Shown here: positions 2,324 to 62,312 of the stretch, one piece after another
Numbering within the stretch: position 1 is the first letter of the stretch
How the letters are laid out: each line of letters begins with the position of its first letter
Source of the DNA: Hermatobates lingyangjiaoensis
Lineage: Eukaryota > Arthropoda > Insecta > Hemiptera > Hermatobatidae
Assembly (NCBI GenBank): GCA_026182355.1
Contig: JAPFBL010000034.1
Span: 1,806,501-1,870,500, forward strand
Length of the DNA: 64,000 nucleotides
Direction: 5' to 3'
Program-made: the position numbers and the translations under genes
Notes under the pieces: generated by a model
Databases searched by the model: none
Seen by the model: the letters and a program-made list of their open reading frames with translations, nothing else
What the model was told of the DNA's origin: nothing

Positions 2324-2467
2324 TAGTGGAAAAAATATATTACGTCTTCTCACCGTAACAGTTAGTCCTGATCATCAGGCACATTGACTCATGATGAACA
2401 CTTAGTGTTCGACACGCGTAGTAAAATATATTCTTCGTGGTGAAGACGTAATATATTTTCCTCACTA
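2324..2467. repeat. Short inverted repeat carrying a hammerhead-like relic
   Basis: Arms 2324-2354 and 2439-2467 are reverse complements around AATATATTACGTCTTC, with a few mismatches. Between them, 2388-2420 on the plus strand reads like a degenerate copy of the motif found intact at 55266-55298: ATGATGAACAC, a short loop, GTGTTC, then GACACGCG in place of GAAACGCG. The left-hand partner is reduced to a CCTGATCATCAGG remnant. I read this as an old inverted pair of PLE terminal repeats. The repeat is clear; the PLE assignment is inference from better copies. Confidence 0.6.
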
Positions 2468-3003
2468 TTTAACAAATTACATATAGATTGTAATTTATGA
2501 ATACTTTATCAGTTTTTGATAAATAATTATTAAATTATTTACTAGTTTAAGAGTTTATCAGAAATAATTTCCTGAGAAAATTAGCAAAACAGACATGAAT
2601 AAGAAGAAATACAGAAGAATACATTTCGGTGATTATTTTTAATCATGCCTATATTAACAAACAATGAAAATAATAATATCACAGAATGTAAAAGAAGTTA
2701 GGCAAAGTGATTATTCTTTTATATATTGGCTAGAGTTAAAAACAGTGAGTAATGCGAAGATAGTGTCTAAAATCTTCTAAGACGATAGGAGAAGTGAGGG
2801 AGGAATATAATCCAGGTAAAAATATGTATAGAGCGCATTATGTAGACGTTAACAGGTTATTAGGCATCAAGTGTAATAATTATTTAAGAGTATTAAACGT
2901 AGCTAGTTATATAAGTAAGGATTGTCTGGGTATGTTAGGTTAAGAGTAACAAGGAAAGATATAGACAAACTGGCTGCCGTGCCAACCAGGGGATATAATA
3001 TTT
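2468..3003. other. AT-rich stretch, nothing recognised
   Basis: No repeat, RNA gene or coding pattern seen. Confidence 0.5.
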
Positions 3004-3468
3004 GTCTAAAGAAGTGCTTCCCAAACTTTTTCGAGCGACCGCCCCCTTGGGTCCGTAAACCTATACTCAACACTCCTCAATAATCAGAATCATAGACTAA
3101 ATAACGAAATGAGTAACATTTTAATAATGAAATTAATATAATGACTAATCGAATAATTATTTATAATCCAATATATGTATTGTTTCATAGCATACTTATG
3201 CAAAAGAATTAATACACAATAAAAGAAACTTAGATGAGAATATACTTTTAACATAAAAATAAATTATCAAAACAAATAATTTTAAGAAAACTTTTCCTAG
3301 AAGTTTACATGTGGTGTTTTCACTTAAATTTAGAAATTATATTGCATGGACATTTTCAATTTATGGAAATAGAATCCCCAACTCCTTTTTGCATTAGTGC
3401 CCCCCCGATATCAAAGCACCGCCCTCAGGGGGGCGGTACCGCCCTCTTTGGGAAACACTGGTCTAAAG
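3004..3468. mobile_element. hAT-type non-autonomous element (MITE) with 8-bp target duplication
   Basis: The 449-bp element (3012-3460) is flanked on both sides by the 8-bp direct repeat GTCTAAAG (3004-3011 and 3461-3468), the target-duplication length of hAT transposases. Its ends are imperfect terminal inverted repeats: left AAGTGCTTCCCAAAC, right (reverse complement) CAGTGTTTCCCAAAG. CAGTG-TTTCCCAAA is a typical hAT/Charlie-like terminus. Both ends continue into C-rich or G-rich subterminal stretches (CCGCCCCC at about 3050; runs of G at 3427-3434). The interior is AT-rich and encodes no transposase, so it would need an enzyme supplied from elsewhere. Confidence 0.85.
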
Positions 3469-3691
3469 CATATGCAAATCAATGGTATCCCATGAGAAGT
3501 GTTCATTGTAATAAAAGTATTTATAGGATATAATAGAAGGGAAGCGTGCGCTCGTAACCAAGAATAGTAACTTACCTGGAAGGGCAAAAGTAACGAGAAG
3601 AAAATGCCATTGTACATAAGTGTTTATTTAAGATAAAGGTAAATGCTAAGATAAGAGGATGGTTGATTCTATATGTCAGTAAGGTAGTTAT

Positions 3692-3930
3692 GGGGGCCAG
3701 GTTAGCTCAGTGGTTAATGTACTCGCCTCTGGACTGATAGTCCGGGGTTCAATCCCCACCTGGTCCTAGATTTATTCACGCGGTAAGTGAATAAATCTGA
3801 GAACGTCGTTCCTTGGAGAGGACGTTAAGCCCTCGGTCCTGAGCCTGTACAATGTCAGGTACTCTTTAAAGATCCCTATTCTAAATGCATTTGACTTAGG
3901 CAAAGTTTAGGAATCTCAATGTAGAATCTG
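3692..3930 (+). mobile_element. tRNA-derived SINE, copy 1
   Basis: The head (about 3695-3767) resembles a tRNA: an acceptor stem GGCCAGG pairing with CCTGGTC, an A box TTAGCTCAGTGGT and a B box GGGTTCAATCC, the internal RNA polymerase III promoter. It is followed by a tRNA-unrelated body that recurs in the minus-strand copies at 29979-30202 and 21695-21925 (ATTTATTCACGC, CGAGCCTGTAC or GAGCCTGTAC, AAAGATCCCTA, ending in GTAGAATC). The shared body and repeated occurrence mark it as a SINE and not a functional tRNA gene. The tail region is simple and has no long poly(A). Confidence 0.85.
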
Positions 3931-4836
3931 TAGAAATCACCGATCAAACAAAAAACCGGTAAACAGCTGACCTTATCACCCGATAAGGGGTCGGTTTAAA
4001 CAATATATAAAAAAAAAGTAGTTGTATCATGTGAATACTAATTGGTGAGTGAGTTAATGCAGAATGGCAGTCCACATTATTTTATTTTATTTTTAGTCCT
4101 TTATTTTATTGTTTTAAAAAGTTTGATTATTTCTTTATTTTCTCATTATATTAATTATAATATTATAATTTATATTAGAATAGGTAAAACCGTCATACCT
4201 ATTTCCAATATAAATAATACTAACTTCGATATTATTAAGAATATTATAAATAATTAAATATAAATTGTTTAAACCACGATATGTAATTTAAATGGTAAGT
4301 AACCTTGCTTATTGTTTCTCAGTCGTTTTCATGTGAAGTCTCACTGAAAGAAATCAAAATTTTCGGAGACTACTGATTTTGGAAAAGCTTATTTGTTTGT
4401 TTCAAATTCTCTTATTTCTAGACTTTATATTTCGAGTATTTTAGATGCGGGAAGTGTACCTTAGTTGCCATTTATTGCCCACTTAAGTTACACGTGACCG
4501 AACGATCAGGTTGATTATGCATCAGGATTCCTTAATTTTACCGCTCTCGTGTCAACTGGAGATGAAATAGGCTGATCTCGTACACAGAGGCGCTTAGCAG
4601 GCTAATAGTTACTTCAACGATATTTTCTATTTTTCATAACCAAGAATCTATCTCTAATTAGTGGGATAATTGGATAATAAGAAGCTTATGCTTATTAATA
4701 TTTGGTCCTCAGTAACGCTTTTCAAAGAGCTAAAACGCCCTAAATAAACTGAAATAGTACAAGGTATATAGTACCAAGTGGTATTCATCACATAGTCCTA
4801 TCTCTATCTTTCCTACCTATGAAGTTGTCGTTATTT
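3931..4836. other. AT-rich stretch with one small hairpin
   Basis: A hairpin at about 3968-3993 pairs CTTATC with GATAAG around ACCC. A 71-codon frame at 4042-4257 is made of Ile, Asn, Tyr and Phe codons from AT-rich sequence and is not credible as a gene. Confidence 0.5.
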
Positions 4837-9399: not shown

Positions 9400-9580
9400 T
9401 TACTTGACTTGAACCGGGCACGCTTGTGACAACACTGTTGGTCTCCAACCGTCGCTTCGCAAGTGCACTTGTGTCTCTATCTCAACTCTCCTGAAGACGT
9501 TCACAAAAAAATAGAAAGTAAGTGTGTTCGTATCTTTATTCTGTGTCAATAGTTTACTGTGAAACGTATACATATATATT
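9400..9580 (+). mobile_element. PLE-type terminal-repeat relic, hammerhead family 2
   Basis: Related in reverse orientation to 47683-47822: both share the block around TTGAACCGGGCA, a CTCTCCTG...GACG core and the end AAGTGTGTTCG. The core at 9485-9518 is CTCTC-CTGAAGA-CG-TTCAC followed by a run of A and TAGAAAG, so the GAA-AATT part has decayed. Assigned to the PLE group by likeness to better copies at 12455-12489, 25343-25368 and 47738-47775. Confidence 0.5.
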
Positions 9581-9598
9581 TCAAAGTAGAGGAAAAAC

Positions 9599-9765
9599 CA
9601 TAGAGAAATTAAAAGCACACACTTACACGGTGAGAAACTTACACGTTCTTACGGAGACCAACCGTATCTGAACCAATGAGCCTGATTTGTCTCTCTTATC
9701 TCCCCAAAAGACGGTTCAAACCAAAAATTAGAGACTGTAAGTGTGTGCTTTTAATTCTCTATGTT
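9599..9765. repeat. Inverted repeat, hammerhead family 2 relic
   Basis: Arms 9599-9628 and 9730-9763 are reverse complements (AGAGAATTAAAAGCACACAC against its complement). The right arm is preceded by a degenerate core at 9703-9738: CCCAAAAGA, a GGTT-CAA-ACC stem and AAAATTAGAGAC. The same unit end recurs at 12425-12460, 47440-47465 and 52408-52440, so this is a dispersed family. Confidence 0.6.
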
Positions 9766-9929
9766 CCTTTCTCTACATTCAACTATATTTGTCCGTTCCG
9801 GATCGTATTTCCAAGGAAAAACTATATATATGTCACATTAAATTTACGGCCTATTGTTTTTTTAATTAATTTTTTGGATAACTTTTACAAAGCCCTTAAG
9901 AGTCTTTTGAATTCACAATATATAATTAT

Positions 9930-10063
9930 ATATATATAAACTAAAATTTTCAAAAGAACATACAAAAAAGAAATCACTGAACTCAATACTATATTTTGAT
10001 GTCCTCGTCGTCAGGAATAGATGTCAATTGCTCCAAAGGCTGATAACGACATTATCAGTCACA
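9930..10063 (-). mobile_element. Dispersed repeat, hammerhead family 7, abutting (TA)n
   Basis: Matches 47503-47616 in reverse orientation over more than 100 bases (shared blocks GATGTCCTCGTCGT, AAATCACTGAACTC, GGCTGATAACGAC). The minus-strand core at 9989-10014 reads CTGACGA, C, GAGGACATC, AAA, ATAT, A: the hammerhead layout with G12 changed to A. It runs straight into (TA)n at 10063. Confidence 0.55.
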
Positions 10064-12379: not shown

Positions 12380-12407
12380 TATATATATATATATATATAT
12401 ATATATA
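12380..12407. repeat. (TA)n microsatellite
   Basis: About 14 TA units immediately left of the palindromic unit at 12409-12626. Confidence 0.95.
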
Positions 12408-12408
12408 G

Positions 12409-12626
12409 CTCAATGTACATAAAGAAACAGAGAAATTAAAAACACAAACTTACAGTCTCTAATTTTCGGTTGAAGCGTCTTCAGGAGAGAAAAGTGAGGG
12501 AAACCAAGCGCACTGGTACAGAGACGGTTGGAGACCCAACCGTCTCTCCTGAAGACGATTCAACAAAAATTAGAGACTGTAAGTTTGTGTTTTTAATTTT
12601 TCTATGATTCTTTATGTACATTGAAC
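12409..12626. mobile_element. Palindromic PLE-type terminal-repeat pair, hammerhead family 2
   Basis: Arms 12409-12489 and 12544-12626 are near reverse complements beginning and ending in TCAATGTACATAAAG. A second nested palindrome lies at the centre: GAGACGGTTGG (12521-12531), AGAC, CCAACCGTCTC (12536-12546). Each arm holds a core. The minus-strand core at 12455-12489 has helix I CTCT paired with AGAG, CTGAAGA, C, a decayed stem, GAA, palindrome AATT and A. The plus-strand core at 12544-12577 is more decayed (GAA changed to AAA). Confidence 0.65.
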
Positions 12627-14569
12627 TCTATTTGTCCATTTCAGATCGCATTTTCATCAAAAAAGTGTATATATATAACACTGTTACAGTGACATATATT
12701 CTTTGTGTCACTGTTTATTTTAAGTGTCATCTGTCCTGCCGGACCGCTTTTCGTTTATCATGGTATATATATATATATATTATGCACGTTAGCATCCATT
12801 TAGACAATGGTAAAGTACGTTAATATACCATTAAACCGAAATAAACAGGTTAGACATTAAAATAATACCGAATCTTACAACAAATCTCATAGAGTTACAT
12901 TGTATATTATCATAATACATATCTTCCAGGAGTAGTTAGGTGTGGTAGAAAAAACCAACAGGTTTCGCAAATTAGTTTATATACATTTATTATTATTTGT
13001 TACTGTCCTACATATATCATACTTAGAGTGTATAAACGTCTTTGTCAATATAATATCTAAGTTCAGTTGTAATAATTGATCAATATAAATTGTGTGTTAA
13101 AATCAAAGCAGTTTCATTATAAAAATCAAGAACAGAAACCATTCATAAGGATAATATGCTATATGTTCATAACTCTAACCATTATATCAGTGTTTAAGAA
13201 ACATAAGTATTTACTACCCTTGAAGGACAGCAGAAAATTAATTGAATGAAATATTTATTAAGGGGGCATACATACATTTAGAGGATGATGCATTTAGATT
13301 CGGGTGGCGATGAGAGAATTGCCGGAGTGAAAGATGGAAATAGGCCGACCCACTCGTACAGACGGCCAAAGACCAGTTAAGAGGTGAAAAATAGCCCACC
13401 TTGCTGAAAACCCGACCATACCTGCTCTGGTCACTTCTCCAATAATACTCACCAAACGACAAAAAAAAAACTGCCCTCAATTTAAATTCTCTCACATTTT
13501 CTTTTGGATAGAAAAGCTTTGAAAAACTCTACTATTAAATATCTTTCTCTAATGGTTCTCAGAATAACCTGTTCAAATATTACCTTTGTAAAAGGTTTTC
13601 ATGAATAAAATCAACTCTAAAACAGACCATTATTTTCCATATTGATTAGCATGAAAATACTGGAAAGCATTCAGAAACTTTTGGGCCAATACATTTTGCC
13701 CCTTTCATTGAAGCTCTCCTGAATATTCAGTAAATTAAAAAAAAAACCTTGGCAAAGCGCTATCTTGACTAAATCATACGCTTAACTCAACACAGCCATC
13801 ACATCAGCGGTGTTTTAATAAGATAACACCTAGATTTTAATGAGAAACGAAATTGTTCTGTTTTGATAAAATATTGGTTGATTACTTCCGACATACGAGT
13901 AGGTAACATTGAGCCTGCCCAACAGAATAAAAAATTGAATTAGGTTTACCATCTTTATAACCACCTCTACTATTTTCTCTTAACTAGTTGTAGCAATATT
14001 CATTGGAAAATTGTTTAAACATAAAGGACAAGTAGTCATAGTTTGACATTTTAGTTATAAACTATTGGGTTTACCATTGCACGCTGCAATTAACTTGACG
14101 ATACAACTATAGCTAATTTACAAAACCATAACGTTAATCAAGATCAACTAATTCGAATCATATAAGATCATTATTTTACACTCAATTTATTTTGATTTAT
14201 TATTTTCTACTTTAGGAACTGATATTCTAATAGCTTAAGAGGAACTTAAATATTGACCCCTAAGTTCATCTCCTGTTTGTCCCTGTACCTCCTATTATCA
14301 CTTTCTCTCTCATCCAATCAAGATTTCAAATTATTAAGCACCGTTGTTCTCAGTATTTCACCTATAAAAACATTCACTATTAAATCCTACAAAAATGTAG
14401 AATCCCATTGATAGCAACCATATATTAATCATGGAAATTATTTGAGAATGAATTTATAAAAAAAAATAATAATTAATGTATATCCACATGAATATGTTTC
14501 GTAAAAATTGAAACAACAATATATATAATAAAAACATATGAAACAATATAAAGAAGACTATATATTCGG
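12627..14569. other. AT-rich stretch with a small GC-richer patch
   Basis: (TA)n at 12762-12782. The sequence at 12680-12730 resembles 59745-59790 in reverse (TTGTGTCACTGTTTATTTTAAG), so it is part of another dispersed repeat. The patch at 13290-13450 is less AT-rich and holds an 85-codon minus-strand frame (13238-13495) without any pattern I recognise. Confidence 0.45.
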
Positions 14570-17634: not shown

Positions 17635-17745
17635 AAAGATTTCACATAAACACGTGAAATAACAATGAATGATGAAACCACAATAAGAAATGGGAAAACA
17701 AGACTAAGATCTTTCAACCGTAACAAGCGATCTTCAGTCCAACCA
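17635..17745 (-). mobile_element. PLE-type repeat fragment, hammerhead family 3
   Basis: Shares long blocks with 31626-31775 and 39235-39365 (GATTTCACATAAACACGTG, AATGGGAAAACAAGACTAAG). The minus-strand core at 17701-17740 reads CTGAAGA, a shortened stem, CGGTT, GAA, palindrome AGATCT, T, then AGTC. Helix I and the 5' half of helix II are damaged compared with 31697-31739. The 85-codon frame at 17665-17922 is read through this repeat and is not a gene. Confidence 0.7.
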
Positions 17746-18275: not shown

Positions 18276-20744
18276 GATCATTATGTAGTCAAAATTTTCA
18301 GAGTAAATCATAAGCCACCTTTTTTTCATTTGTGTGCAGACTGACCTTTCTTTTTACCTGATTGTTTTTTTTTTGTAATACACCATTTACTAATTTGTAT
18401 TTGAAGATTATTACAGTAGATTTGAAGATTATTAGAAAAATTATTAATAACCAAGAAAATTAGATTTAGAGGAATTAATGCAGCATGAGCAGTGTAATAG
18501 ATTTTCCAGGAAAAATTTTACTCAGAAGGTTTTGGAATAATCTACACTATAAAGACAATTTTGAGAAAACATAAATGGATTTAAAGAATACTATCCCACC
18601 AAATGTCACAAATGCCATTCATAAAACTTTGGAAATATACTCTTGGGATCTTATAACTTCTAAATCTTTCAGAATGACAAAATAAATTATTTTTATGATT
18701 GCCGCAATATACTTATTGTTTAGTAACCATATGCAATAACCAGAATGACCTCCAAGTGATGAAGTCTTAATAGTTATTGTAGTTCCATTAATGAGGTATC
18801 AAGATACTTCAGATCCTTTGAACGATAATGTCTCATGAACAATCATTTGTACCCCTTCGATAATAAATTTTATTAGTTATTTCATGTTTTGTAACTTTTT
18901 ATATTTTTTTCATTATATGTTCTCAAGCTTTAGTAGAAAAATTGCGTTAAATAACTTTATCTTATATTCATGATTATAAATTGAATTAAATTATATATAT
19001 ACATTCAAAATATTTTAAATATTTTTGCTCGAATACTTTTTTGTGTAAAATAATTTAAGTTTAGAAATTTTTCTGATATTGGCTCAAGGTTAATTTAATG
19101 TATATAAACAATATTATGTTAATTAATTAACATTAATAATGTATTGATTAAAATTATTAATAATTAATAAATATTATTAACTATTTAAGGTTATTTATGT
19201 TCACATACACTATTAATCAATAATTGAAAGATGTTAATATAAATCATCTGAATTATGGCTCAAAATTAGTATCCGATTTGTGATAAAGAACAAAAAAGTA
19301 CCCTTCCCATGATTCCATTATTACCCAAAAACAACATGGTTCGTAAACACACAAGAAATGAATACTAACTAAACAATAATAAGGGGTGTTAAAACAATCA
19401 ATATGTAGATTGGTTGTCTATTTCACTCTAGAGAAATGTATGGTGTAATATTATATCGTTTGGTTATTGTGTCATATAGTTACTAGAAAGCAGAAATGGG
19501 TTAAAAGTTTGTTAAAATTAATTGACGGTTTACTTATGGTCAAGATTAGTGAAGTAACTCCAGAGCAGTTTTATTAATATTAATAAATCAAAGTTTTTGC
19601 ATTGTCTACAATTTTTATTTTATGAACAAGGTGAAATTACATTGTAGTTAGTCGAAGTAGTTTAGGAGAAATACTAAAACTATAAAGATATGGTTGAGTT
19701 AATGGGAGTATGGGTGGGTGGGTGACTAGTGTGTTGGGAACACAGGTGGTTAGTTGTTAGGCTAGAACAGATGAACCAATCTCCATAATGGATAGCAATA
19801 AAAGAGGCTGACTTGCTTCATCACTTACATGTTTAGCAATGAGCCTTCTCTGAAGGAGTTTAAAACCTATATAAAACAACAAGCCTGCAGAGAGTCTACC
19901 GGCCACCACTATCTTTATTAAGCCCTCCATCGACTTGAGCCTCTACATAAACACCATCAGACCTCTCTTGAATCACTCACTTTACACCCTTTTTATACCT
20001 GATTTTTTATCATCCCTATTGAGCGCTAGCTTTAAGGATTATTACACTCATCTGATAACTGTCATCATAAAAATACTACAATTCGAAGCGATCATATTTT
20101 TTTTATATTTCTTGGCATTTAACTGTGATTTTAACGTTGTATAAAGTCATATATAAGAAAAAAAATACAAAACTAAATATTGTGAGATTTCAAAGGACAT
20201 CTGTTATTCTAAAACTACACAGAGATTATTTCATCTAGGCTAACAAAGCCACGATTAGTAAAACTGCCTTAAACCTTTCAGAGGGATGATTGAGTTTTTA
20301 CTAATCCAGACATGTTTAGTACAAGATTTGATAATGTAAAAATCTTTGAAGAATGGACATTATTTTTCTTATTTCCAATATAAACTCTCAGGTAATTAAG
20401 ATACACCATTTTCAACAGACACATTTACACAATTGTATCTTTGGTGTTATTTTAGTGCTAGCAAATTTCATTGCACCCATATCAGATATGGGAGAGTCAA
20501 AACCTTATAAATAGTAGTAGTTGAAAAGCATTCCCTACGAAAAAAATATCCAGACCACCTATGTATTCACAGATATAAATTTTATCGATTTACATGAATT
20601 ATTTTTTATTTTTTTTACATTTTGATTTTAACATTTATGTTTTTTTGTTTTCCAACGCCCATGCTTATAATATATTCACCTTTTAGAGCTGTTTTAGGGA
20701 CAGAAATTGTACTTCATTTATTATTAGAGCACCGTTTTTAGTAA
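18276..20744. other. AT-rich stretch, nothing recognised
   Basis: A short GGGTGGGTGGGTG tract lies near 19711-19724. Otherwise only AT-rich sequence and chance frames are present. Confidence 0.45.
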
Positions 20745-20746
20745 TA

Positions 20747-21672: not shown

Positions 21673-21694
21673 TAGATGAGCCAGATAACCTGCT

Positions 21695-24139: not shown

Positions 24140-24440
24140 AAATAATGGAACTAATATAATTGTAATAATTGTGCTGCATGTATCGATGTTTTAGCCCTGA
24201 GGAGAACATAAACATATGTCGAAACGTTGGCAAAGAAGTATTTTTTATAATTTGTAGACAAAAAAATCCTCAACAATCTCAAAAACTTTGAATATAGAGT
24301 GTCAAGAAAGGAATAGCAAACTATATATATATATACCCAATTAAATGAAACGATTTCACGAATTAACATAAAAAACACACAGAATGATGATGGCGAGGCC
24401 ATCGAAATATAGAAGTGAGTTTCTGTTTCGTTTCTTTATG

Positions 24441-33959: not shown

Positions 33960-33961
33960 TA

Positions 33962-47354: not shown

Positions 47355-47480
47355 CTTTAAAGAGTCTCCAAACGTCTCTGAACCAGTGCGCTTTATTTCT
47401 CTCTCTTACATTTACTGAAGACGGTTCAAACCGAAAATTAGAGAGTATAAGTGTGTGCTTTTAATCCTCAATGTTTCGTT
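47320..47480 (+). mobile_element. PLE-type repeat, hammerhead family 2, right of (TA)n
   Basis: (TA)n at about 47325-47353. The core at 47415-47440 reads CTGAAGA, C, GGT-TCAA-ACC, GAA, palindrome AATT, A, then GAGAG. A CTCTC that could form helix I lies at 47401-47405 but is displaced by nine inserted bases. The repeat ends in GTGTGCTTTTAAT, as elsewhere in the family. Confidence 0.65.
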
Positions 47481-47502: not shown

Positions 47503-47645
47503 ATACCAGTCGTTATCAGCCTTTGGAGCGATTCACATCTATTCCTTACGACGAGGACATCGAAATATAGTAGTGAGTTCAGTGATTTTTTTCTGTGTGT
47601 TCTTTTAAAATTCTAGTATATATATATATATATAGATATATATTA
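47503..47645 (+). mobile_element. Dispersed repeat, hammerhead family 7, left of (TA)n
   Basis: Plus-strand counterpart of 9930-10063. The core at 47544-47571 reads CTTACGA, C, GAGGACATC, GAA, ATAT, A, GTAGTGAG, so GAA is intact here while CTGACGA has become CTTACGA. The two copies together give a complete consensus core. Ends in (TA)n at 47618-47645. Confidence 0.6.
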
Positions 47646-47682
47646 TATCAAGAGTTATTGTTGATTATTAATTTATATATAT

Positions 47683-47822
47683 GTTGACGTTTCACAATAA
47701 ACCACAGTCACAGAACAAAGAAACGAACACACTTACTGTCTCTAATTTTTGGTTGAACCGTCATCAGGAGAGTTGAGATAGGTATACCAAGCGCACTTGC
47801 CCGGTTCATGTCAAGTATGAAA
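47683..47822 (-). mobile_element. PLE-type repeat, hammerhead family 2
   Basis: The minus-strand core at 47738-47775 has helix I CTCT/AGAG, the canonical CTGATGA, C, GGTT-C-AACC, then AAA in place of GAA, palindrome AATT, A and GAGAC. Everything but G12 is intact. The flank (GAACCGGGCAAG complement) matches 9405-9430. Confidence 0.65.
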
Positions 47823-49008: not shown

Positions 49009-49012
49009 ATAT

Positions 49013-49459
49013 ACAGGATTTATTAAATAATACGCCATATTTACGGTTGACCAGTTTCCTTGTGTATTTCTCAAGGGATCTGAATAATCTTCTTGCACAA
49101 ACATTTAATTGTATAGAACATTTCCAATTGTTCCATTGTCTTTAAATCTTGCATTTCCACTAATTTCACCATTGTCACAACAGTCACAACTAGTACTATT
49201 ACTATTACTACTACTACTACTATCGTCGAAAGTGATAGTAGTAGTAGTAATAGTAATAGTACTAGTTATGACAATAGTGAAATTAGTGGAAATGGAAGAT
49301 TTGAAAACAATGGAACCATTGGAAATGTTCTATACAATTTAGATGTTTGTGCAAGAAGAATATTCAGATCCCTTGAGAAATACACAAGGAAACTAGTCAA
49401 CCGTAAATATGGCGTATTATTTAATCAAACCTGTATAAATGAAGGACTGCTTCCTAAAT

Positions 49460-49520: not shown

Positions 49521-49701
49521 TATACTTTGGGAGCAGACCTTCTTTTAAACATACCTCATTAAAGATCTTGCCAACATTAAGTTTAGTATGTTTCCTACAT
49601 ACCTTTTCAAGGTTTCGAATGCTTCTTTTCCATCTTTGTGGTATCATATAAATTAACTCACCGATTTTTTTATCTTTAAATATATTTTTCATTTTACATG
49701 T

Positions 49702-49735
49702 CCGACGTTTCAGTCTACGTTGACCATTCTCAAGG
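49702..49735 (-). ncRNA. Candidate hammerhead core, family 5 (left arm)
   Basis: Mirror copy of the core at 50889-50922: TTGAGAA, T, GGTC, loop AACGTA, GACT, GAA, palindrome ACGT, C. G8 has changed to A and C3 to T, so it is probably inactive. Confidence 0.45.
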
Positions 49736-50006
49736 ATTCTATATACAAGGTTTTTTTAACAATTCTAATAAATACTTATTTACAATAACAATTACATCAC
49801 TTCTATCAAACATAACTAATAATACAATATTCTTTTAAAAAAACACTACCTTAATAAAATTGAGTAACAGGTTTGCTACAAAATTCCCTACATGAACTTT
49901 TTCACAACATTATTTAAATCACTAAATAGTTATTTTTTACGAATGTAACTTTAAAATTCTGGAAAAACAACAGGACTGATCATTAAGGTTCGGCTTCTTT
50001 TCCTTT

Positions 50007-50687
50007 ATGCATAATGACTGGCCTCTATTCGACCAAGCAGTAGAAAGGATTAAACAAGTATTGGTCAACAATGGTTATAGTAACCAACACTTCGACAATA
50101 TTTTAAGGAAATATATGAAGAATCTAAATTCAAACAATAATCAAGAGCATCAGCTGGGTGAAGAAGGAAGAATACAAACGGTGTATTATAAGAATCAATT
50201 CTCTAATGAATATAAAAAGGATGAAAGAATTTTGAAGGCTATAATTAAAAGAAATACAACATGTGTTAACTCGGCAGACAAGCTAAATATTAGTATTTAC
50301 TACAACAGTTCCTGCACAGCAAATATGATAATTAGGAACAACCTAGAACAAAAAACACAACTACAAAAAACCAATGTAGTGTACAGATATAATTGCACTA
50401 TAGGAGACTGTGAGCTCCTAAAATCGAGCTATATTGGTTCTACGACGACAACACTTTCACGCAGACTTACGATGCATCTCGCAGCCGGAGGACCGAAAGA
50501 ACACACAATGAACATACATAAAAGCAGGCTAAGTAGAAAAATGCTGGAAGACAACATTGAAGTATTATATGCAGACAATAATCACACGAGGCTGCATATA
50601 ATTGAATCATTATGCATAAAGGAAAAGAAGCCGAACCTTAATGATCAGTCCTGTTGTTTTTCCAGAATTTTAAAGTTACATTCGTAA
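50007..50687 (+). pseudogene. Penelope-like C-terminal region: linker plus GIY-YIG endonuclease (open, 226 codons)
   Basis: Residues 10-30 (QAVERIKQVLVNNGYSNQHF) look like the segment following the reverse transcriptase thumb. Residues 60-90 hold YYKNQFSNEYKKDERILK. The nuclease occupies about 125-215: VVYRYNC (GIY position), a Cys pair (C at TIGDC), SSYIGSTTTTLSRRLT with the YIG motif and the following Arg, MHLAAGGPKEH, HKSRLSRKML and IIESLCIKEKKPNLN with the metal-binding Glu. This is the nuclease that nicks target DNA for PLE integration. The reverse transcriptase is missing. The first residues (MHND) come from the inverted-arm junction at 50017, so the ATG is not the native start. The frame has no stop or frameshift, unlike 14945-15470. 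Confidence 0.88.
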
Positions 50688-50888
50688 AAAATAACTATTT
50701 AGTGATTTAAATAATGTTGTGAAAAAGTTCATGTAGGGAATTTTGTAGCAAACCTGTTACTCAATTTTATTAAGGTAGTGTTTTTTTAAAAGAATATTGT
50801 ATTATTAGTTATGTTTGATAGAAGTGATGTAATTGTTATTGTAAATAAGTATTTATTAGAATTGTTAAAAAAACCTTGTATATAGAAT

Positions 50889-50922
50889 CCTTGAGAATGG
50901 TCAACGTAGACTGAAACGTCGG
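50889..50922 (+). ncRNA. Candidate hammerhead core, family 5 (right arm)
   Basis: CC, TTGAGAA, T, helix II GGTC-AACGTA-GACT, GAA, palindrome ACGT, C, GGA. TCC before the core pairs with GGA after it (helix I). G8 is A and C3 is T relative to the hammerhead consensus. It is placed between the endonuclease 3' region and the next N-terminal frame, exactly where PLE hammerheads occur. Confidence 0.5.
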
Positions 50923-50931
50923 ACATGTAAA

Positions 50932-51070
50932 ATGAAAAATATATTTAAAGATAAAAAAAGCGGAGAGTTAATTTATATGATACCACAAAGATGGAAAAGA
51001 AGCATTCGAAACCTTGAAAAGGTATGTAGGAAACATACTAAACTTAATGTTGGCAAGATCTTTAATGAGG
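50932..51070 (+). pseudogene. PLE N-terminal ORF fragment
   Basis: ATG at 50932 opens MKNIFKDKKSGELIYMIPQR, then WKRSIRNLEKVCRKHTKLNV and GKIFNE, and enters (TA)n. A second copy on the minus strand (49540-49692) continues to VCLKEGLLPKYTN before its (TA)n. The two copies therefore break at different points in the same frame. Confidence 0.65.
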
Positions 51071-51092
51071 TATATATATATATATATATATA
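51071..51092. repeat. (TA)n microsatellite
   Basis: About 11 TA units closing the right arm of the PLE copy. Confidence 0.95.
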
Positions 51093-54000: not shown

Positions 54001-55121
54001 TCCTATAACCATGTAGTTTGGAAACAACAACAATGCAACTATTCACTAATTATAATTAAAAACTTTTAACTGGGCTTGTTATGTCTACATCAGATCAGAT
54101 GCCATTAATTTATTCCCGCCATCTTGTTTGTATCACGAAATAACAAAGTGCAACACTTTTAATTGAAATTATTAAAAGTTACTCTATCAGTAGTATATAT
54201 ATTACCAATAATTCGATGGTTAACAAAGATTTCCTCTACATTGTCTATATTTAATAAGTTTAATAGTTAATGAAGCAAACAATTATAACAAATATGGCAA
54301 CACTGATTACAATACTATGTTTGGCATTAATCAATGTCTTTCTAACAATCTCAACTTACGAGTATATTAAATAAGTGGAGATCGTTTTGTGAGATATATT
54401 ACAAATCAAAATTGAGAATATTTAAGTAATAGAGAGGAATAAATAATATTTGCGAATTGTGTTAAAAAAGATTAATTATGAGAGCATGTTTATACAAATC
54501 AATTCAGGTTAGCTAATAATGGATTTTAGTTTGCTAATAATGGATAGTTTGCTAGAAATATTTACTCGATGATAACGCATATATCGCATATCAAATTTTA
54601 TATATAAAACTAAATAAGTTACAAGAGAAAATATCGCTGACGAAAAATTCTGGATGATGTATCACAGAATGTTTTGATTTCCGCACAAAATATTAGAATT
54701 TTTAATACAATTGACAGATTTGAGAATGAGTAAAAAAAAGTTACAAATTCAAAAAAGTAACCAATATATTACCAATTTATGTCCATAAAATAAAATGTTG
54801 ATAACACCAAGACTTAATCGTTTGAATGACGTAGATTATAAAGTAAAATAATTATTTTATTTATTGACTGGAATATTTTTTTATTGTTTGACTAACTCTA
54901 TATACTCTAGATTTGTTTTCCAATATTAAGAAAGGTAAGAAATGGAAAAGATTTAGTAGTATTTCAGTACTTAGAGTGCAAACTAAGGACTTGATGATGT
55001 TTATTACATATATTCAATAAAAGTCAGTCAATAATACGTTATACAAAATAGTATCACAGTATATAAAGCAAATAATGCAAATAAAATAATTCGAACGTAG
55101 TGCAATCACTTATTATGTGGT
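51093..55121. other. AT-rich stretch with small repeat scraps
   Basis: 52195-52312 is an irregular ATT/TATA tract. 52408-52440 matches the end of family 2 repeats (GGAATTAAAAACGCACCC, ACAGTCCCTA). 53126-53160 matches the family 3 tail (GAGGGGTTGAGAAGAGTGG). The 70-codon frame at 51341-51553 has no recognisable domain. Confidence 0.45.
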
Positions 55122-55188
55122 ATTTGCTCATTGTAGGGTAAAAAGCTAATGAAATGGTATGCACATATAAAAATTTAATGATATAAAC

Positions 55189-55221
55189 AACGCGTTTCGA
55201 ACACGTAGTGTTCTTCCTCAG
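55189..55221 (-). ncRNA. Candidate hammerhead ribozyme, family 1 (left arm)
   Basis: Identical core to 55266-55298 in reverse orientation: CTGAGGA, A, GAACAC-TAC-GTGTTC, GAA, palindrome ACGCGT, T. Flanking AC and GT can form a 2-bp helix I, weaker than in family 3. Confidence 0.55.
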
Positions 55222-55265
55222 GTATTAACTACAGACATTAACAGACACTCACTCTTAGTTAATGA

Positions 55266-55298
55266 CTGAGGAAGAACACTACGTGTTCGAAACGCGTT
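55266..55298 (+). ncRNA. Candidate hammerhead ribozyme, family 1 (right arm)
   Basis: CTGAGGA (55266-55272), extra A, helix II GAACAC (55274-55279), loop TAC, GTGTTC (55283-55288), GAA (55289-55291), palindrome ACGCGT (55292-55297), T (55298). Helix II is a perfect 6-bp stem. Helix I is not preserved on this side. Helix III would have to form between two RNAs. Confidence 0.55.
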
Positions 55299-55405
55299 GT
55301 TTATACCATTAAATTTTTATATGTGGAGACCATTTCATTAGCTTTTTACCCTACAATGAGTAAATAAAATATTTTATTAATGTGTCAGCAGTAAGGGTGT
55401 ATTAC

Positions 55406-56085: not shown

Positions 56086-57880
56086 GGAGGGGTGCGGGGT
56101 GGGGTTAGTCGACGACCGCCTGCCTGTGTGGTACAACAATAATTGACATAAAGGCTCACCATACCACGCCCTGATCGACAATCAGGAGAGGGGGGGGGGG
56201 TCTCGACGACCGCCTGCCTGTGTGGTACCACAACAATTGACATAAGGGCTCACCATACTACGCCATGACTAACAATCAGGAGAGGGACGGGGGTTAGTCG
56301 ACGACCGCCTGCCTGTGTGGTACCACAACAATTGACATAAAGGCTCACCATACTACGCCATGACCAACAATTAGGAGAGGGAGGGGGGTTAGTCGACGAC
56401 CGCCTGCCTGTGTGGTACCACAACAATTGACATTAAGGCTCACCGTACTACGCCATGACCAACAATTAGGAGAGGGAGGGGGGTTAGTCGACGACCGCCT
56501 GCCTGTGTGGTACAACAACAATTGACATAAAGGCTCACCATACTACGCCATGACCAACAATAGGAGAGGGAGGGGGTTAGTCGACGACCGCCTGCCTGTG
56601 TGGTACCACAACAATTGACATAAAGGCTCACCATACTACGCCATGACCAACAATCAGGAGAGGGAGGGGGGTTAGTCGACGACCGCCTGCCTGTGTGGTA
56701 CCACAACAATTGACATTAAGGCTCACCATACTACGCCATGACCAACAATCAGGAGAGGGAGGGGGGTTAGTCGACGACCGCCTGCCTGTGTGGTACCACA
56801 ACAATTGACATAAAGGCTCACCATACTACGCCATGACCAACAATCAGGAGAGGGAGGGGGGTTAGTCGACGACCGCCTGCTTGTGTGGTACCACAACAAT
56901 TGACATTAAGGCTCACCATACTACGCCATGACCAACAATTAGGAGAGGGAGGGGGGTTAGTCGACGACCGCCTGCCTGTGTGGTACAACAACAATTGACA
57001 TAAAGGCTCACCATACTACGCCATGACCAACAATCAGGAGAGGGAGGGGGGTTAGTCGACGACCGCCTGCCTTGTGTGGTACCACAACAATTGACATTAA
57101 AGGCTCACCATACTACGCCATGACCAACAATTAGGAGAGGGAGGGGGGTTAGTCGACGACCGCCTGCCTGTGTGGTACAACAACAATTGACATAAAGGCT
57201 CACCATACTACGCCATGACCAACAATCAGGAGAGGGAGGGGGGTTAGTCGACGACCGCCTGCCTGTGTGGTACCACAACAATTGACATAAAGGCTCACCA
57301 TACTACGCCATGACCAACAATTAGGAGAGGGAGGGGGGTTAGTCGACGACCGCCTGCCTGTGTGGTACCACAACAATTGACATAAAGGCTCACCATACTA
57401 CGCCATGACCAACAATTAGGAGAGGGAGGGGGGTTAGTCGACGACCGCCTGCCTGTGTGGTACCACAACAATTGACATTAAGGCTCACCGTACTACGCCA
57501 TAACCAACAATTAGGAGAGGGAGGGGGGTTAATCGACGACCGCCTGCCTGTGTGGTACCACAACAATTGACATTAAGGCTCTCCGTACTACACCATGACC
57601 AACAATCAGGAGAGGGACGGGGTTAGTCGACGACCGCCTGCCTGTGTGGTACCACAACAATTGACATTAAGGCTCACCGTACTACGCCATGACCAACAAT
57701 TATGAGAGGGAGGGGGGTTAGTCGACGACCGCCTGCCTGTGTGGTACCACAACAATTGACATAAAGGCACACCATACTACGCCATGACTAACAATCAGGA
57801 GAGGACGGGGGTTAGTCGACGACCGCCTGCCTGTGTGGTACCACAACAATTGACATAAAGGCACACCATACTACGACCTG
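56086..57880. repeat. GC-rich minisatellite, about 95 bp x 19 copies
   Basis: CGACGACCGCCTGCCTGTGT recurs 19 times with spacings of 93-96 bases (first at about 56109, last near 57817). Each unit also holds GGTACCACAACAATTGACAT, AGGCTCACCATACTACGCC and a G-rich box (GGAGAGGGAGGGGGG). ACATAAAGG and ACATTAAGG variants alternate irregularly. Unit length is not a constant multiple of three, so the minus-strand Pro/Arg frames (such as 56440-56709) are not coding. GC content is far above the surrounding DNA. It lies in the probable upstream intron or 5' flank of the Ig exon. Confidence 0.97.
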
Positions 57881-59339
57881 AACAGCAATGGTCTACCTAG
57901 CTTCTAACTACTCCCAGGTCAACTATAAAGAACTCTTGACAGAATTGCACCTCTACAAGTCAGCATGTCTCAAAAACAGTGGGAACATCCCGCTATCAAA
58001 GGTGGGAGTTATCTAGAAGAAGAAAACATTTTACCACCTTCAAGATGACCATTGTTAGAATGAGACTTTAATTCTAATATGTATTTGTTATTTTGATATC
58101 CCATTCAATTATTCGTTGGATTTCATAAAACCATTTTTAAAGAAATGAAATCACACATTGAACATAAACATTCATTCTAAAAGAGCAATATCCAACTGAA
58201 ATGACTTTTTTCCTTGTGTTTTATATGAGGCCACAAATTATTAAATTTGATATTAAATATAAATTAAATATATAAACATTGAAAAATGTAATATGTTTTA
58301 TTATTCATGTCTTAGTCCATTCTGTTGTATTCTTGATTATGGTTTATACGTGCAATTACACTTCATGTATGTATTGCATTTTTTGTTATTCAGTTATTTT
58401 ATGATATGGTTGACTAGTTAATAACAAAAACTGAACACTTCATTACATTATTAATGATTATGGTTATTATAATGATTATATATACGTCCTTATAATTAGT
58501 ATAAAATAAATTTAAGAACTTGTTTGGAAAATCGCTAACAGAATTATATATATCTTTATAAAAATAAAAGCAAAATTTAATAGAATTTTGGTGGATTTCT
58601 TTGATTACAAGGGTGTCAGAGGGCAATGAAAATTGAATTAAAAATATTTGTATTCATGAAAATAATAATCTAATTATTTAAAACTAAATTGTGTTCGTTA
58701 GAAATTGTTTGAAGTGAAAATAAAGCGTTGTTTAACAATAAAGCAGTTTGATCGTGTGCCTTTCTCTAGTGCAAGGGTTGGCGAGGGTAAGCTAATTATT
58801 GAATCGTTTATGTTAGTACCAGTGTAGGATACCTGAATCGAGTTAATCCAAATGACGTCAGATCCCTTCATCAGAGGGATTCAATGCACGAACTGCCATC
58901 CTAACTCAATTTGATATTTTGCAAAATCACCCCATAAGAGGCGGTGGTGTAAGTCTGTATTACTATGCGCCCAATGTCCCCCTCTCAGCCCTAAGCCTGG
59001 AAAATGCATGGATTACTCCTTACAGAGACCCACTCAAACTGGGTGTTAAGAAGCAAAAAAATACCACCAACACTATATGTTTACATTAATAATAATATTA
59101 AAACTATATTCAAGGCTAATAACTTAAATAATTATTCTAATAAACTGATCTAAAGTTTAGAGTAATTATCTATATATAAATTAATATTTTATGCGAATAT
59201 GTACCTGAACATTTTTTATAAACGAAAGTCAATGAAAAAGTATATTAAATGTATAATAGAGTAACATTTTCTGAAAAAAATCTGGAGTGTCCATCTTCTA
59301 ATTTACTATCACTAAACGTATTATCAGACTATCGTACGG
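57881..59339. other. Mostly AT-rich; unidentified GC-richer patch
   Basis: 58760-59045 is less AT-rich (TAAGAGGCGGTGGTG, CCCTCTCAGCCCTAAGCCTGG) and may be an old repeat, but no tRNA boxes or frame were recognised. 58414-58626 (minus) is a chance frame. Confidence 0.4.
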
Positions 59340-59450: not shown

Positions 59451-59539
59451 TTGAAGCATAAAACCAAGCACTAACGCTTTAGACAGTTGAATCATTCTTA
59501 ATAAATTATTGTATTATTGTATTGTTAATAAACATATAT

Positions 59540-59720
59540 TTAGTTTTATATAAGAAGAAATATGGGTTTTATGAGGATATAAGAGGATTGTTTTGGAGAT
59601 GATGCCTATGAAAAAGATTTTAAATATTATTGATATGTCGGTAATGAATGTTTGATTTTTAAATCTAGAAAGTTGACCGAGTCCAGATTAAACAATAATC
59701 CTTTTCTATCAAACAGTTAA
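59540..59720 (+). repeat. Hammerhead family 4 relic (single 209-bp unit)
   Basis: Diverged copy of the unit at 32221-32440: TATAAGAAGAAATATGGGTT, GATGCCTATGAAAAAG, AAAGTTGACCGAG and TCTATCAAAC in the same order. The GAAACGTTGG end has decayed to GATATGTCGG. Confidence 0.65.
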
Positions 59721-59800
59721 TATATTATTGTATTTGCTATATATGTCATACTTAAAATAAACTGTGACACATAGACAGAAACATAACAAAGACTCACTTT

Positions 59801-59835
59801 TCAATATTTCGACCGTAATGGCGGTCGTCCTCAAG
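59801..59835 (-). ncRNA. Candidate hammerhead core, family 6
   Basis: Minus strand: CTTCTC before the core pairs with GAAAAG after it (5 of 6 pairs), TTGAGGA (C3 to T), extra C, helix II GACCG-CCATTA-CGGTC (perfect 5-bp stem), GAA, palindrome ATAT, T. Downstream (to about 59745) the sequence resembles 12680-12730. Confidence 0.5.
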
Positions 59836-59867
59836 AGAAGAAGTGAATTGACGGAGGGACGACAGTC

Positions 59868-59942
<75 letters not shown>
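59868..59942. repeat. (CA)n(GA)n compound microsatellite
   Basis: About 15 CA units followed by about 21 GA units. The Thr-His and Arg-Glu frame through it is not a gene. Confidence 0.98.
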
Positions 59943-59947
<5 letters not shown>

Positions 59948-62146
59948 CTCACACACGCACACACACATATATATATAACAGTGACATTGAATTAGATATT
60001 TTCTACAGATGGCTTCATTAATGCTATATATACTTTACGTAACTAAAAAATAATGACATTGATTTGGTGATAAGGAGTATTGGATGACTGCTTGAGAAAA
60101 GGTTATTCGCCTAATAACAGTCAAAGAGAAAGGTTAAAAATTAATGGAATTAATTTTTTAAAAATTTTAAAAATTAATGTTATGAACTTAAGCCTAACAA
60201 AATCGAAGAAGAGAGTCGATGAGCTTTCAATGTCCTCATCGTTATTATGAATTTAGTAAACTTAGTAAACATTTCCTTACAGATGGTGTGAAAATAATAC
60301 TTACACATTTTGTAGTTAAATTTAGAGTAAATATCTTTTATGTATAAATTATTTGTAAGACATTTTTCTTTTTTTTTGATGAAACTCAGCTTTATTGAAA
60401 GTGGAAGAAAGGATGCTTTGAACGAAATAGCTGAATCTCTGTGAATAACGTCTCCAATGTAATTTTGAGTAGGCTGCCTTGAATGCGGCAAATGTAGAGT
60501 AATAAAGAAGGAAGGGAAGGATAGTTGAAGTGGAATGATTTTGTCAGAGGATATTACGCCAAGCCATAGAGAGATCAGAAACACACATGCTTTTACTCCA
60601 ACCTGCTTAGGACAGGTGGAAAACAGTTTATCACTTTTTTTTTCAAAACTTTTTTCTCATCCACAACTATAATCTATATATATGTTGCGTCTATAATCTA
60701 GACAATGATTTTATCACTCCTAAATTATAATTGTGTGACTTCAAAAAAATTAACATGACATTGTACTCGTACAATCTGTTGTTTTACTGTTCTCTCTAAA
60801 CTTGCTATTCTTTGTGCTTTGTATTCTAAACGACAAATAGTAACTGTAAAGTTATAAAATAATTGCTTAGCTTATTCTTACATATTCAAGATTATAGACA
60901 AAACGGTTTTGATATACAAACCTGAAAAACATTGTGCTGCAAAAATGTTGAACTTAGGGAAAATTAAAGAACAAATCTCTATAATACAGCATGTTTCTAA
61001 AGGGTAATCTTGAGGTTTCATTTATTTTTTTAAAGATAGCAGCCTGAAAGAATAATATCGGGTTGGGATTGCTTGTTAAATTTTGCATCGATGTTGGAGA
61101 TAGCCAGATACAATATAACATTGAAAAGGGTTTGAATGTACTGTTTTTCATTAAACATTTTGGAGCTGTTTTTTTCCATATGGATAAATTAGAAGTATAA
61201 GTTCATTAATTTTACTAAATATTAAGGTTGTAATCGTTTATGAAGTGAACTATAAACTACGATATACATTGGTTTTTAGAGATCCATAATACTTAATAAA
61301 CCTTAAGTACTTGCACCTGTGCAACAATGATGTTTGCACATCTGGAAGTATAGGAAATATAAAATAAAACGATGAAAAACAAAACAAAAATTAAGAGTGC
61401 ACAAGATATGCAGTAAAACTACAGATTTGAGAAAGTGATGAAATTAAAAAAAAAATAAAAGTAAATAAAGGAACTACAGTAAATAGAAAACTAAAGAATA
61501 AAACATATGCTCAGTACTCTGGCTCATAGGTACATTCATATACTGTAACTCCAAGTTTCATTATAAACAAACATTTTGACGGATTTCTGTGTTGCCGAAT
61601 TAAAGAATACCGAATAAAGGTGGTTTAACCTGCAGTGTTCATTCCTACTAGGACAGGGAAGTGACCAAACTCAACCTTCCTGGGTCAGTGCTGCACTACA
61701 AGACGAAGAGGCTTCCGGCTACTTACATTATCTATTATTCCGAGGCAGTTCATTTACAACTCCACCAGTTCTAGCACACTGAAAATGAATTTCTTTGAAA
61801 ACTAACTTATTATCAGTAAGTTGTATTAAAGAAATTAACTTTTTTGAAATTATTACTTTCCAGGATGTGCCTGTTCGATACGATATATTAGAAAGTAGAA
61901 AATAAAGAGTTCTTGTACTACTAATAGATTTTATTTTTATTTAATACGCACTTTGAAATTAAAATATATTCAAATAAACAGAGTAATGAATAAATTATTG
62001 GATTTCTAACACTTGTTACTTACACGTTTATAAACCTAAATAACTCGTCTTATGTGCTATTTTGATTTACCACTTCTCTCAACATGTTTAAAAAAATGGG
62101 GAATTTCAAAAGATTACGTATCCATACAAAAGAGCTTTATGATAAA
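59943..62146. other. AT-rich stretch, nothing recognised
   Basis: The 134-codon minus frame at 60180-60584 has no domain pattern and no splice context that I trust. 61575-61740 is less AT-rich but unidentified. Confidence 0.45.
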
Positions 62147-62312
62147 ATTAACAACGCATTTCAAGCACTTAGTGTTCTTCTTCAGGTTTGCATCTAAAAA
62201 ACAAACTTTTTTTTACCATTTCTATGTACGTTTACGTTTATATATTTCATATATGTTTTTTAGATGTAAACCTGAAGAACACTAAGTGCTTGAAAAGCGT
62301 TGTTAGTTTTAA
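62147..62312. mobile_element. Inverted pair of PLE-type repeats, hammerhead family 1 (diverged)
   Basis: Arms 62147-62205 and 62260-62312 mirror each other (TTAACAACGC, GCACTTAGTG, CTTCAGGTTT). The plus-strand core at 62272-62301 reads CTGAAGA, ACAC-TAA-GTGC, TT, GAA, AAGCGT, T; the palindrome is broken (expected ACGCGT). The minus-strand core at 62153-62185 is similar. Confidence 0.65.

Follow-up and report, generated by a model that had tools for sequence, protein, structure and literature searches.

The question raised by this locus is whether a short motif that recurs in otherwise unrelated repeats is a self-cleaving hammerhead ribozyme and, if so, which elements carry it. We listed 33 hammerhead-like sites in the window, i.e., the whole 64-kb stretch of DNA analysed (Table 1), with several decayed sites placed by family resemblance. 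Masked BLAST sorted the sites into eight clusters (E ≤ 0.01) or nine (E ≤ 0.001), and there was no mutual match between the lettered groups A to F; an earlier note on this DNA, which counted more than 20 copies in at least nine families, was about right. A first, unmasked clustering was rejected and redone because (TA)n runs joined groups B, C, E, F, and part of D. Twelve of the 33 sites are intact, as judged by the core, GAA, self-complementary tract, and non-G cleavage base, with helices not counted; the remaining 21 are damaged. Very probably, these sites are minimal type I hammerheads, predicted from sequence to be catalytic, in the terminal repeats (pLTRs) of several Penelope-like element (PLE) lineages that now persist as short inverted head-to-head pairs and fragments.

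Table 1. Positions of the hammerhead-like sites and associated PLE features in the window; sites are cited in the text by start and strand.
Feature	Position	Strand	Remarks
Group A hammerhead	55187-55223	-	Tract ACGCGT; intact; left arm of palindrome 55121-55366
Group A hammerhead	55266-55298	+	Intact; right arm of palindrome 55121-55366
Inverted pair	55121-55366		Head-to-head, read as PLE ends; arms 95% complementary
Group A hammerhead	26882-26914	-	Altered core and palindrome; left arm of palindrome 26811-27055
Group A hammerhead	26955-26987	+	Single core change; ATG overlaps A9, extra base, and first helix II base
Group A hammerhead	62153-62185	-	Palindrome altered at one base; left arm of palindrome 62134-62320
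Group A hammerhead	62272-62301	+	Partner arm 3 nt longer
Group A hammerhead	2388-2420	+	Decayed; GAC in place of GAA
Group A hammerhead	38199-38231	+	Decayed
Group B hammerhead	25214-25238	-	Tract AATT; intact by criteria; then GTAAGT; left arm of palindrome 25154-25427
Group B hammerhead	25343-25367	+	Intact by criteria; then GTAAGT; right arm of palindrome 25154-25427
Group B hammerhead	12460-12484	-	Weak helix II; then GTAAGT; left arm of palindrome 12403-12631
Group B hammerhead	12549-12572	+	Decayed; then GTAAGT; right arm of palindrome 12403-12631
Group B hammerhead	47415-47440	+	Intact core; without GTRAGT
Group B hammerhead	47743-47767	-	AAA in place of GAA; then GTAAGT
Group B hammerhead	9491-9514	+	Decayed; then GTAAGT
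Group B relative	9705-9730	+	Without core; then GTAAGT
Group C hammerhead	31697-31739	+	Tract AGATCT; intact; 4-bp helix I
Group C hammerhead	39277-39311	-	Core and tract intact; mismatched helix II
Group C hammerhead	17706-17737	-	Core and tract intact; without helix I; helix II register ambiguous
Group D hammerhead	24197-24228	+	Tract ACGT; intact by criteria; helix I 3 bp; helix II first pair A-C
Group D hammerhead	32834-32861	-	Core and tract intact; weak helix II; 3-bp helix I
Inverted repeat	31783-32612		About two 209-bp tandem units per arm
Group D motif	31892-31923, 32101-32132, 32307-32338, 32516-32547	-, -, +, +	One in each 209-bp unit; two core changes
Group D hammerhead	49704-49733	-	C3U with G8A; 50891-50920 is its inverted copy
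Group D hammerhead	50891-50920	+	C3U with G8A; PLE frame 49980-50687 about 200 nt to its 5' side
Group E hammerhead	59803-59834	-	Tract ATAT; C3 = U (U.G); then GTGAGT
Group E hammerhead	24384-24411	+	Altered C3; then GTGAGT
Group E hammerhead	9990-10014	-	AAA in place of GAA
Group E hammerhead	47545-47569	+	Single core change; then GTGAGT
Group F hammerhead	24511-24536	-	Tract AGGCCT; intact; 2-bp helix II; C as cleavage base; GIY-YIG fragment about 95 nt to its 5' side
GIY-YIG fragment	24630-25040	-	GIY-YIG endonuclease domain (Pfam); read as PLE
PLE C-terminal fragment	49980-50687	+	Own Pfam matches none above cut-off
Inverted PLE pieces	49546-51078		Head-to-head; arms 49546-50017 and 50607-51078, 99% complementary

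The motif runs from the core CUGANGA through an extra base, helix II, GAA, and a self-complementary tract of 4-6 nt (A first, U last) to a non-G base followed by the second helix I strand. The A15.1-U16.1 pair and non-G cleavage base expected of a type I hammerhead accompany the core and GAA at the 12 intact sites, and a self-complementary tract stands where an intramolecular helix III is absent, as in minimal dimeric PLE hammerheads. The core, hairpin, GAA, and tracts described in the earlier note were all seen, though it left the extra base unmentioned and missed the tract AGGCCT of group F (24511-24536, minus). Normally A9 is followed directly by the first pair of helix II; in all 11 top matches the extra base lies between the two. 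This base is C in groups B and F and in two of the three representatives of E, and in the F and E1 folds it pairs with the essential G12. Known alignments include one- or two-base insertions between CUGAnGA and the stems, according to the accessible part of one source (PMC10085705); the extra base therefore lowers the fit to type I without excluding membership. Neither this base nor a GTRAGT near the predicted cut was found in the accessible literature on the class. As a separate observation, an ATG overlaps the core at some group A sites (2388+, 26914-, 26955+, 38199+).

CTGANGA by itself gave 39 matches against 19.9 expected, an approximately twofold enrichment, and many of the 39 are therefore chance. 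A log-odds descriptor scoring the core, hairpin, GAA, palindrome, and helix I, with a null of 10 Markov-2 windows, gave 18 matches at a score of at least 27 (0.4 per null window) and 29 at a score of at least 23 (2.7 per null window), the helices and palindrome being part of both scores. Rfam reported no hammerhead up to E = 10, either in the whole window or, with laxer filters, in 31680-31770 and 55150-55340. Rfam microRNA precursor matches at the palindromic loci all fell under the curated cut-offs and were taken as hairpin artefacts. Since Rfam does not report these motifs, annotation of animal genomes may be overlooking ribozymes of this kind.

We then relied on features left out of the selection. 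Choosing sites by core, hairpin, and GAA only, with the palindrome and helix I omitted, yielded 11 matches at a score of at least 22, compared to 0.47 per window in 15 Markov windows. The A...T palindrome was present in nine of these 11, against 3-14% in the null depending on threshold; the two exceptions (26914- and 62185-) each lack it by one base, and the tract is not always palindromic, contrary to the earlier note. Helix I, likewise unused in choosing and open-ended as in the type I form, was paired at 34 of 48 positions in the predicted register and at 15-22 of 48 in six slid registers. Because the palindrome and the helix I register both hold up independently of selection, the type I hammerhead layout is real. 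Together with the PLE context described below, these two tests bear out the earlier proposal of minimal type I hammerheads from several PLE lineages whose helix III would form between two RNAs.

Further comparisons point in the same direction. Across 12 subfamily representatives, the second helix III pair takes five pair types and pairs in all 12 (shuffle mean 6.1), though the representatives were chosen partly by palindrome and the unbiased selection (nine of 11 palindromic) is the real test. The C3-G8 core pair is replaced by U3-A8 in 49733- and 50891+, both positions having changed together in what counts as one event; this covariation occurs in natural hammerheads and is active in vitro, as far as the accessible part of PMC3088659 goes. 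When the core letters were rearranged (180 arrangements including the true one), the true core gave five matches against a mean of 0.31. One other arrangement, TGAGNAC, also gave five, all of which are listed sites with the frame shifted by one base.

The surroundings of the sites are those of PLEs. The frame at 49980-50687 has 128 relatives at E ≤ 0.001; among the 120 matches listed, two name an organism, both crustacean, and some carry RT (PF00078), PF26215, or GIY-YIG (PF01541) domains. A PDB sequence search with this frame returned nothing relevant. A protein search with 24630-25040 gave four candidates, none at E ≤ 0.001, and its assignment therefore rests on the GIY-YIG Pfam match. No full RT frame was found among the six open frames of at least 120 aa in the window. 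Sixteen of the 33 sites lie within head-to-head inverted pairs or arms, a feature absent from the earlier note, and tails were read by eye on one arm in groups A and B; these arms and tails agree with the inverted head-to-head terminal repeats, with an optional tail of 30-40 nt, that characterise PLEs. A (TA)n run lies within 300 nt of 13 of 23 loci, against 3.0 expected (circular-shift P = 0.009). In the accessible parts of published descriptions, PLEs have pLTRs inverted head-to-head, a 31-bp tail, and junction palindromes (PMC3846280), as well as an AT-rich target and an ORF starting at stem II (PMC11167929). Exact group A patterns were not found in viral and prokaryotic collections, a PLE protein profile gave seven pattern matches in viral contigs, none confirmed, and one blastn search of a plasmid collection found nothing; with viral, prokaryotic, and plasmid DNA as their content, all of these collections were a long shot.

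The tract is too short for an intramolecular helix III; pairing through it would therefore join a pair of PLE transcripts or a pair of tandem units within one transcript. The paired tracts would build two hammerhead cores back to back, each cutting after its non-G base, and cleavage close to where the reading frame begins would separate tandem PLE transcripts into their units. This is consistent with a review whose accessible part raises the possibility of dimeric self-cleavage by minimal type I hammerheads of PLE pLTRs (PMC7761336). Free dimer folding produced the expected double hammerhead in one of six RNAs, i.e., F, with AGGCCU tracts paired between RNAs (6/6 bases) and helix I formed in trans (3/4 pairs); tract-to-tract pairing was absent from the free dimer folds of A1, B1, C1, D1, and E1 (0 bases each). 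For a lizard PLE, the accessible text reports that cleavage depended on the element's own protein (PMC11167929).

The earlier note had taken the palindromic tract as the strongest sign of selection on structure. Between copies, however, ribozymes and flanks diverge alike (16/205 versus 48/540 differences; P = 0.77), and no excess ribozyme conservation was found in the seven copy pairs compared. The palindrome is therefore not supported as a sign of selection on these copies; any selection would have acted on source elements, where the structure was kept.

The conserved hairpin and palindrome could instead be what the PLE protein recognises, for binding to RNA or DNA or for priming, or could help to start translation, with catalysis incidental or lost. 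In the accessible account of the lizard PLE, the protein-binding part lies in the first 172 nt of an ORF that starts at stem II, and cleavage was not required for insertion in vitro, which catalytic mutants left unaffected (PMC11167929); the ATG overlap at four of nine group A sites and the location of 13 of 23 loci near (TA)n would also suit such a role. We nevertheless consider it unlikely, since it fails to predict the combination of CTGANGA with GAA, the A...T palindrome, a helix I at one register, or the paired C3U/G8A change.

Some sites might alternatively belong to non-autonomous retrozymes, i.e., small circular RNAs with type I hammerheads that are moved by PLE enzymes, rather than to PLE ends. 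Metazoan retrozymes are described, in the accessible parts of two papers, as short tandem repeats with type I hammerheads for which PLEs/Terminons are proposed helpers (PMC7229834, PMC7761336), and the 209-bp unit at 31783-32612 is tandem with the motif in every copy. Yet this array is the only head-to-tail arrangement, its unit has two core changes in four of four copies, and inverted pairs or arms hold 16 of the 33 sites. Invertebrate retrozyme hammerheads, moreover, are mostly able to form a stable helix III according to the accessible text (PMC7761336), and the window sites have none, all of which makes a retrozyme origin very unlikely. Chance occurrence in AT-rich DNA full of repeats, with numbers swollen as a few elements were copied, is scarcely credible: CTGANGA is only twofold enriched alone, copies inflate the counts, and weak matches such as 29665- and 11830+ score at a level that the null also reaches, but in their best copies groups A to F, which have no BLAST match to one another, all possess the core, the extra base, the hairpin, GAA, the palindrome, and helix I, and the Markov and letter-arrangement controls fall short of the counts.

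Minimal PLE hammerheads thus remain our preferred reading. The class of minimal type I hammerhead variants in PLEs was reportedly published by Cervera and de la Pena in 2014 and by Lunse, Weinberg and Breaker in 2017. The motifs match this already published class and nothing shows them to differ from it.

Comparison with known systems, as far as the accessible parts of the sources extend, agrees with this placement. Minimal PLE hammerheads share the type I layout, the lack of intramolecular helix III, the expected action as dimers, and the location in PLE terminal repeats (PMC7761336). The double hammerheads of newt, axolotl, and avocado sunblotch have the same weak helix III and are more active as dimers, and the palindromic tetraloop of the axolotl hammerhead resembles the tract seen here (PMC7229834, PMC6155905); those sites lie in satellite-like repeats or a viroid, whereas the window sites lie at PLE ends. 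The Penelope pLTRs of Adineta vaga have the same head-to-head arms, junction palindromes, and tail on one pLTR (PMC3846280); the word hammerhead has no occurrence in the text of that paper, while each arm in the window carries one. Metazoan non-LTR retrozymes share the low GC, type I hammerhead, and small repeat units (PMC7229834), and differ from the window, where half of the sites lie in inverted arms, helix III is lacking, and the tails are PLE-type. For hammerheads in PLEs, both activity and role are described as a mystery in the accessible part of a 2020 review (PMC7761336). The six dimerisation tracts in eight to nine clusters within 64 kb form a natural set to test lineage-specific pairing.

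Groups B and E carry an additional feature. A splice-donor-like GTRAGT lies near the predicted cut at 10 of their 12 sites and, where the cut can be placed, starts 3-6 nt past it, abutting or overlapping the second helix I strand. By eye, a 3' splice site after GTRAGT was visible in one B copy and less convincing in E, and none was visible in the other tailed B copies; we therefore claim no intron. An improbable further reading is a ribozyme joined to a 5' splice site, with tracts as addresses and the extra base as an off-switch. A transcript could then either be spliced, through U1 binding, or cleave itself, but not both: unpaired, spliced transcripts would become mRNA, and those that pair and stay unspliced would be cut to serve as element RNA. 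Helix III palindromes, which differ in six groups, would restrict pairing and cutting to RNAs of like lineage; the off-switch would be the extra base, which pairs with G12 in the F and E1 folds. Groups B and E would in this case be two groups where cleavage and splicing compete on paper.

The window holds 33 hammerhead-like sites, which sort by the self-complementary tract after GAA, the predicted helix III, into groups A (ACGCGT, 9 sites), B (AATT, 8), C (AGATCT, 3), D (ACGT, 8), E (ATAT, 4) and F (AGGCCT, 1); several are decayed and were placed by family resemblance. Read 5' to 3', the motif comprises a helix I strand, CTGANGA, one extra base, the helix II hairpin, GAA, the tract (4-6 bases, A first and T last), a non-G base and the second helix I strand. 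By the state of core, GAA, tract and non-G base, 21 of the 33 are damaged. By masked BLAST the sites form 8 clusters when E ≤ 0.01 is allowed and 9 when the limit is E ≤ 0.001, and lettered groups never match one another. The D sites make up three of these clusters, and a single E site splits off at the stricter threshold. This bears out the earlier note's description of a many-copy motif in unlike families. The chief interest of the set is the variety of dimerisation tracts within one place.

Taken on its own, CTGANGA is a weak signal (39 matches against 19.9 expected). An unbiased selection used only core, hairpin and GAA, with 0-3 bases permitted ahead of the hairpin and both palindrome and helix I unused; at scores of at least 22 it returned 11 matches, compared with 0.47 per window across 15 Markov-2 windows. 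Exactly one extra base precedes helix II in all 11, whereas null matches have anything from 0 to 3. Nine of the 11 have an A...T palindrome after GAA, against a null fraction of 0.03-0.14 depending on threshold. The tract had been called always palindromic, which is so for these nine, the remaining two being group A arms with one base altered in each. Helix I pairing was scored in 12 sites, namely these 11 and 24536- (sites are named by core start and strand; score 21.4); 11830+, which has the same printed score and lacks both the extra base and the palindrome, was excluded. Pairing was found at 34/48 positions in the predicted register versus 15-22/48 when slid by 1-3, a count in which sites are partly non-independent, both arms of one palindrome being included; for the first-listed copy per group it was 18/24 (binomial P 0.0004). 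In every one of the six groups, the palindrome is present in one or more of the 12 matches. When the core letters were arranged in 180 ways, the top count, 5, was shared by the true core and one other order, and all five matches of the latter are listed sites read with a shift of one base. Enrichment, palindrome and helix I register argue for a type I hammerhead and, to the extent that sequence can decide, the earlier reading as minimal hammerheads of Penelope-like elements (PLEs) is correct. This class was reportedly described already by Cervera and de la Pena in 2014 and Lunse et al. in 2017, and the sites are further members of it.

All 12 subfamily representatives keep the second base pair of helix III (five pair types; shuffle mean 6.1), and all keep that of helix II (shuffle mean 8.7). 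Because these rows were picked partly by pairing, the claim to the motif rests on the unbiased enrichment and helix I register. The C3-G8 base pair of the hammerhead is replaced by C3U plus G8A in one family, at 49733- and 50891+, which count as one event since the two sites sit on opposite arms of a single inverted repeat. Some natural hammerheads have U3-A8, and hammerheads with this pair are active in vitro (PMC3088659).

The fragments with GIY-YIG or related domains are probably of PLE origin, and the host is probably arthropod-like. Pfam identified a GIY-YIG domain fragment, and an open frame at 49980-50687 has 128 relatives at E ≤ 0.001; RT (PF00078), PF26215 or GIY-YIG (PF01541) occurs in some of the 120 relatives listed, and two of these name an organism, the barnacle Amphibalanus amphitrite and the amphipod Trinorchestia longiramus. 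Sites 24536- and 50891+ lie 3' of the GIY-YIG fragment and the frame, respectively, each in the same orientation. Inverted repeats with outward-facing motifs together hold 16 of the 33 sites, and in five simple pairs the core starts stand head to head, 41-105 bases apart. In A and B, one arm outruns its partner by roughly 25-40 bases by eye, an overhang resembling the PLE tail (PMC3846280, PMC11167929). Of 23 motif loci, 13 have a (TA)n run of at least 12 bases within 300 bases, where the random mean is 3.0 (P 0.009 by circular shift). Four of the nine sites in group A (2388+, 26914-, 26955+ and 38199+) have an ATG starting at A9, comparable to the lizard PLE, in which the ORF starts at stem II and the cut lies 26 bp further on (PMC11167929).

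Features of the window and their coordinates
Feature	Position	Details
Inverted repeats, outward-facing motifs	12403-12631; 25154-25427; 26811-27055; 55121-55366; 62134-62320
Inverted repeat, outward-facing motifs	49546-50017/50607-51078 (arms)
Inverted repeat, outward-facing motifs	31783-32612	about two 209-bp tandem units per arm; nearly perfect, 99.7% over 31827-32612
Relative of 31783-32612 palindrome	59512-59744	79%; adjoins group E motif
Group B and E motifs face to face across (TA)n	9459-10050; 47509-47800
Sites facing one another likewise	24384+; 24536-
Palindrome	49010-49437	centre in TAC/TAG simple repeat; no listed hammerhead site inside; spans start of a frame resembling PLE N-terminal part by eye (no Pfam match); consistent with hairpin self-priming
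GIY-YIG fragment	24630-25040-	Pfam
Probable PLE frame	49980-50687+	no own Pfam match above cut-off
Mariner-like element, two copies	20732-21674; 33960-34869	93% identity, opposite orientation, 12 kb apart
Mariner-like fragment	21065-21478	HTH_48 of Mos1 transposase (Pfam)
Satellite	56101-57889	about 19 copies of 95-bp unit, 95% matches
Tandem array	1052-1487	65-bp unit, 6.7 copies, 95% matches
Dispersed repeat pair	3692-3928; 29980-30202	80%
Sub-threshold tRNA match	3696-3765	26.3 bits, cut-off 29; overlapped by dispersed repeat pair

There is no intramolecular helix III, so two units would have to pair through the palindromic tract, forming two hammerhead cores. Newt and viroid hammerheads are documented examples of such pairing (PMC6155905), and dimer action has been proposed for those of PLEs (PMC7761336); two units would be at hand because PLE genomic copies and transcripts may be tandem, and cleavage in the lizard PLE required the PLE protein (PMC11167929). 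Thermodynamic folding of two free copies each of six representative RNAs (55-65 nt) lends weak support, since only F gave the expected topology of tract-to-tract pairing with helix I in trans; no tract-to-tract pairing was predicted for the A, B, C, D or E representatives (A1 to E1).

Representatives of B and F, along with two of the three from E, have C as the extra base. The predicted structures of F and E1 pair this base with G12. GTRAGT lies 20-70 nt past the core start in 7/8 B sites, 3/4 E sites and F (at +52), and in 0/8 A, 0/3 C and 0/8 D sites (32 sites counted, leaving out the decayed 59406-; the background is 59 occurrences per 128,000 positions). As common ancestry of B and E is possible, these amount to one to four independent cases. 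Among the titles and abstract openings listed, none described GTRAGT beside a PLE hammerhead; the extra base and GTRAGT near the predicted cut may each be a new detail.

The earlier note took the palindromic tract as a sign of selection, which is not supported for the copies in place: across seven copy pairs, ribozyme and flank diverge alike (16/205 versus 48/540; Fisher P 0.77), so selection on them at their present positions is not apparent. The structure common to the families must accordingly stem from the source elements. Rfam gave no hammerhead match in the window, and no relatives beyond it were found in viral, prokaryotic and plasmid collections.

The window is AT-rich (28-41% GC per 4 kb); the satellite lies in its most GC-rich 4 kb and contains no listed hammerhead site. 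One mariner-like copy carries an open transposase fragment, and the dispersed repeat is perhaps a tRNA-derived SINE.
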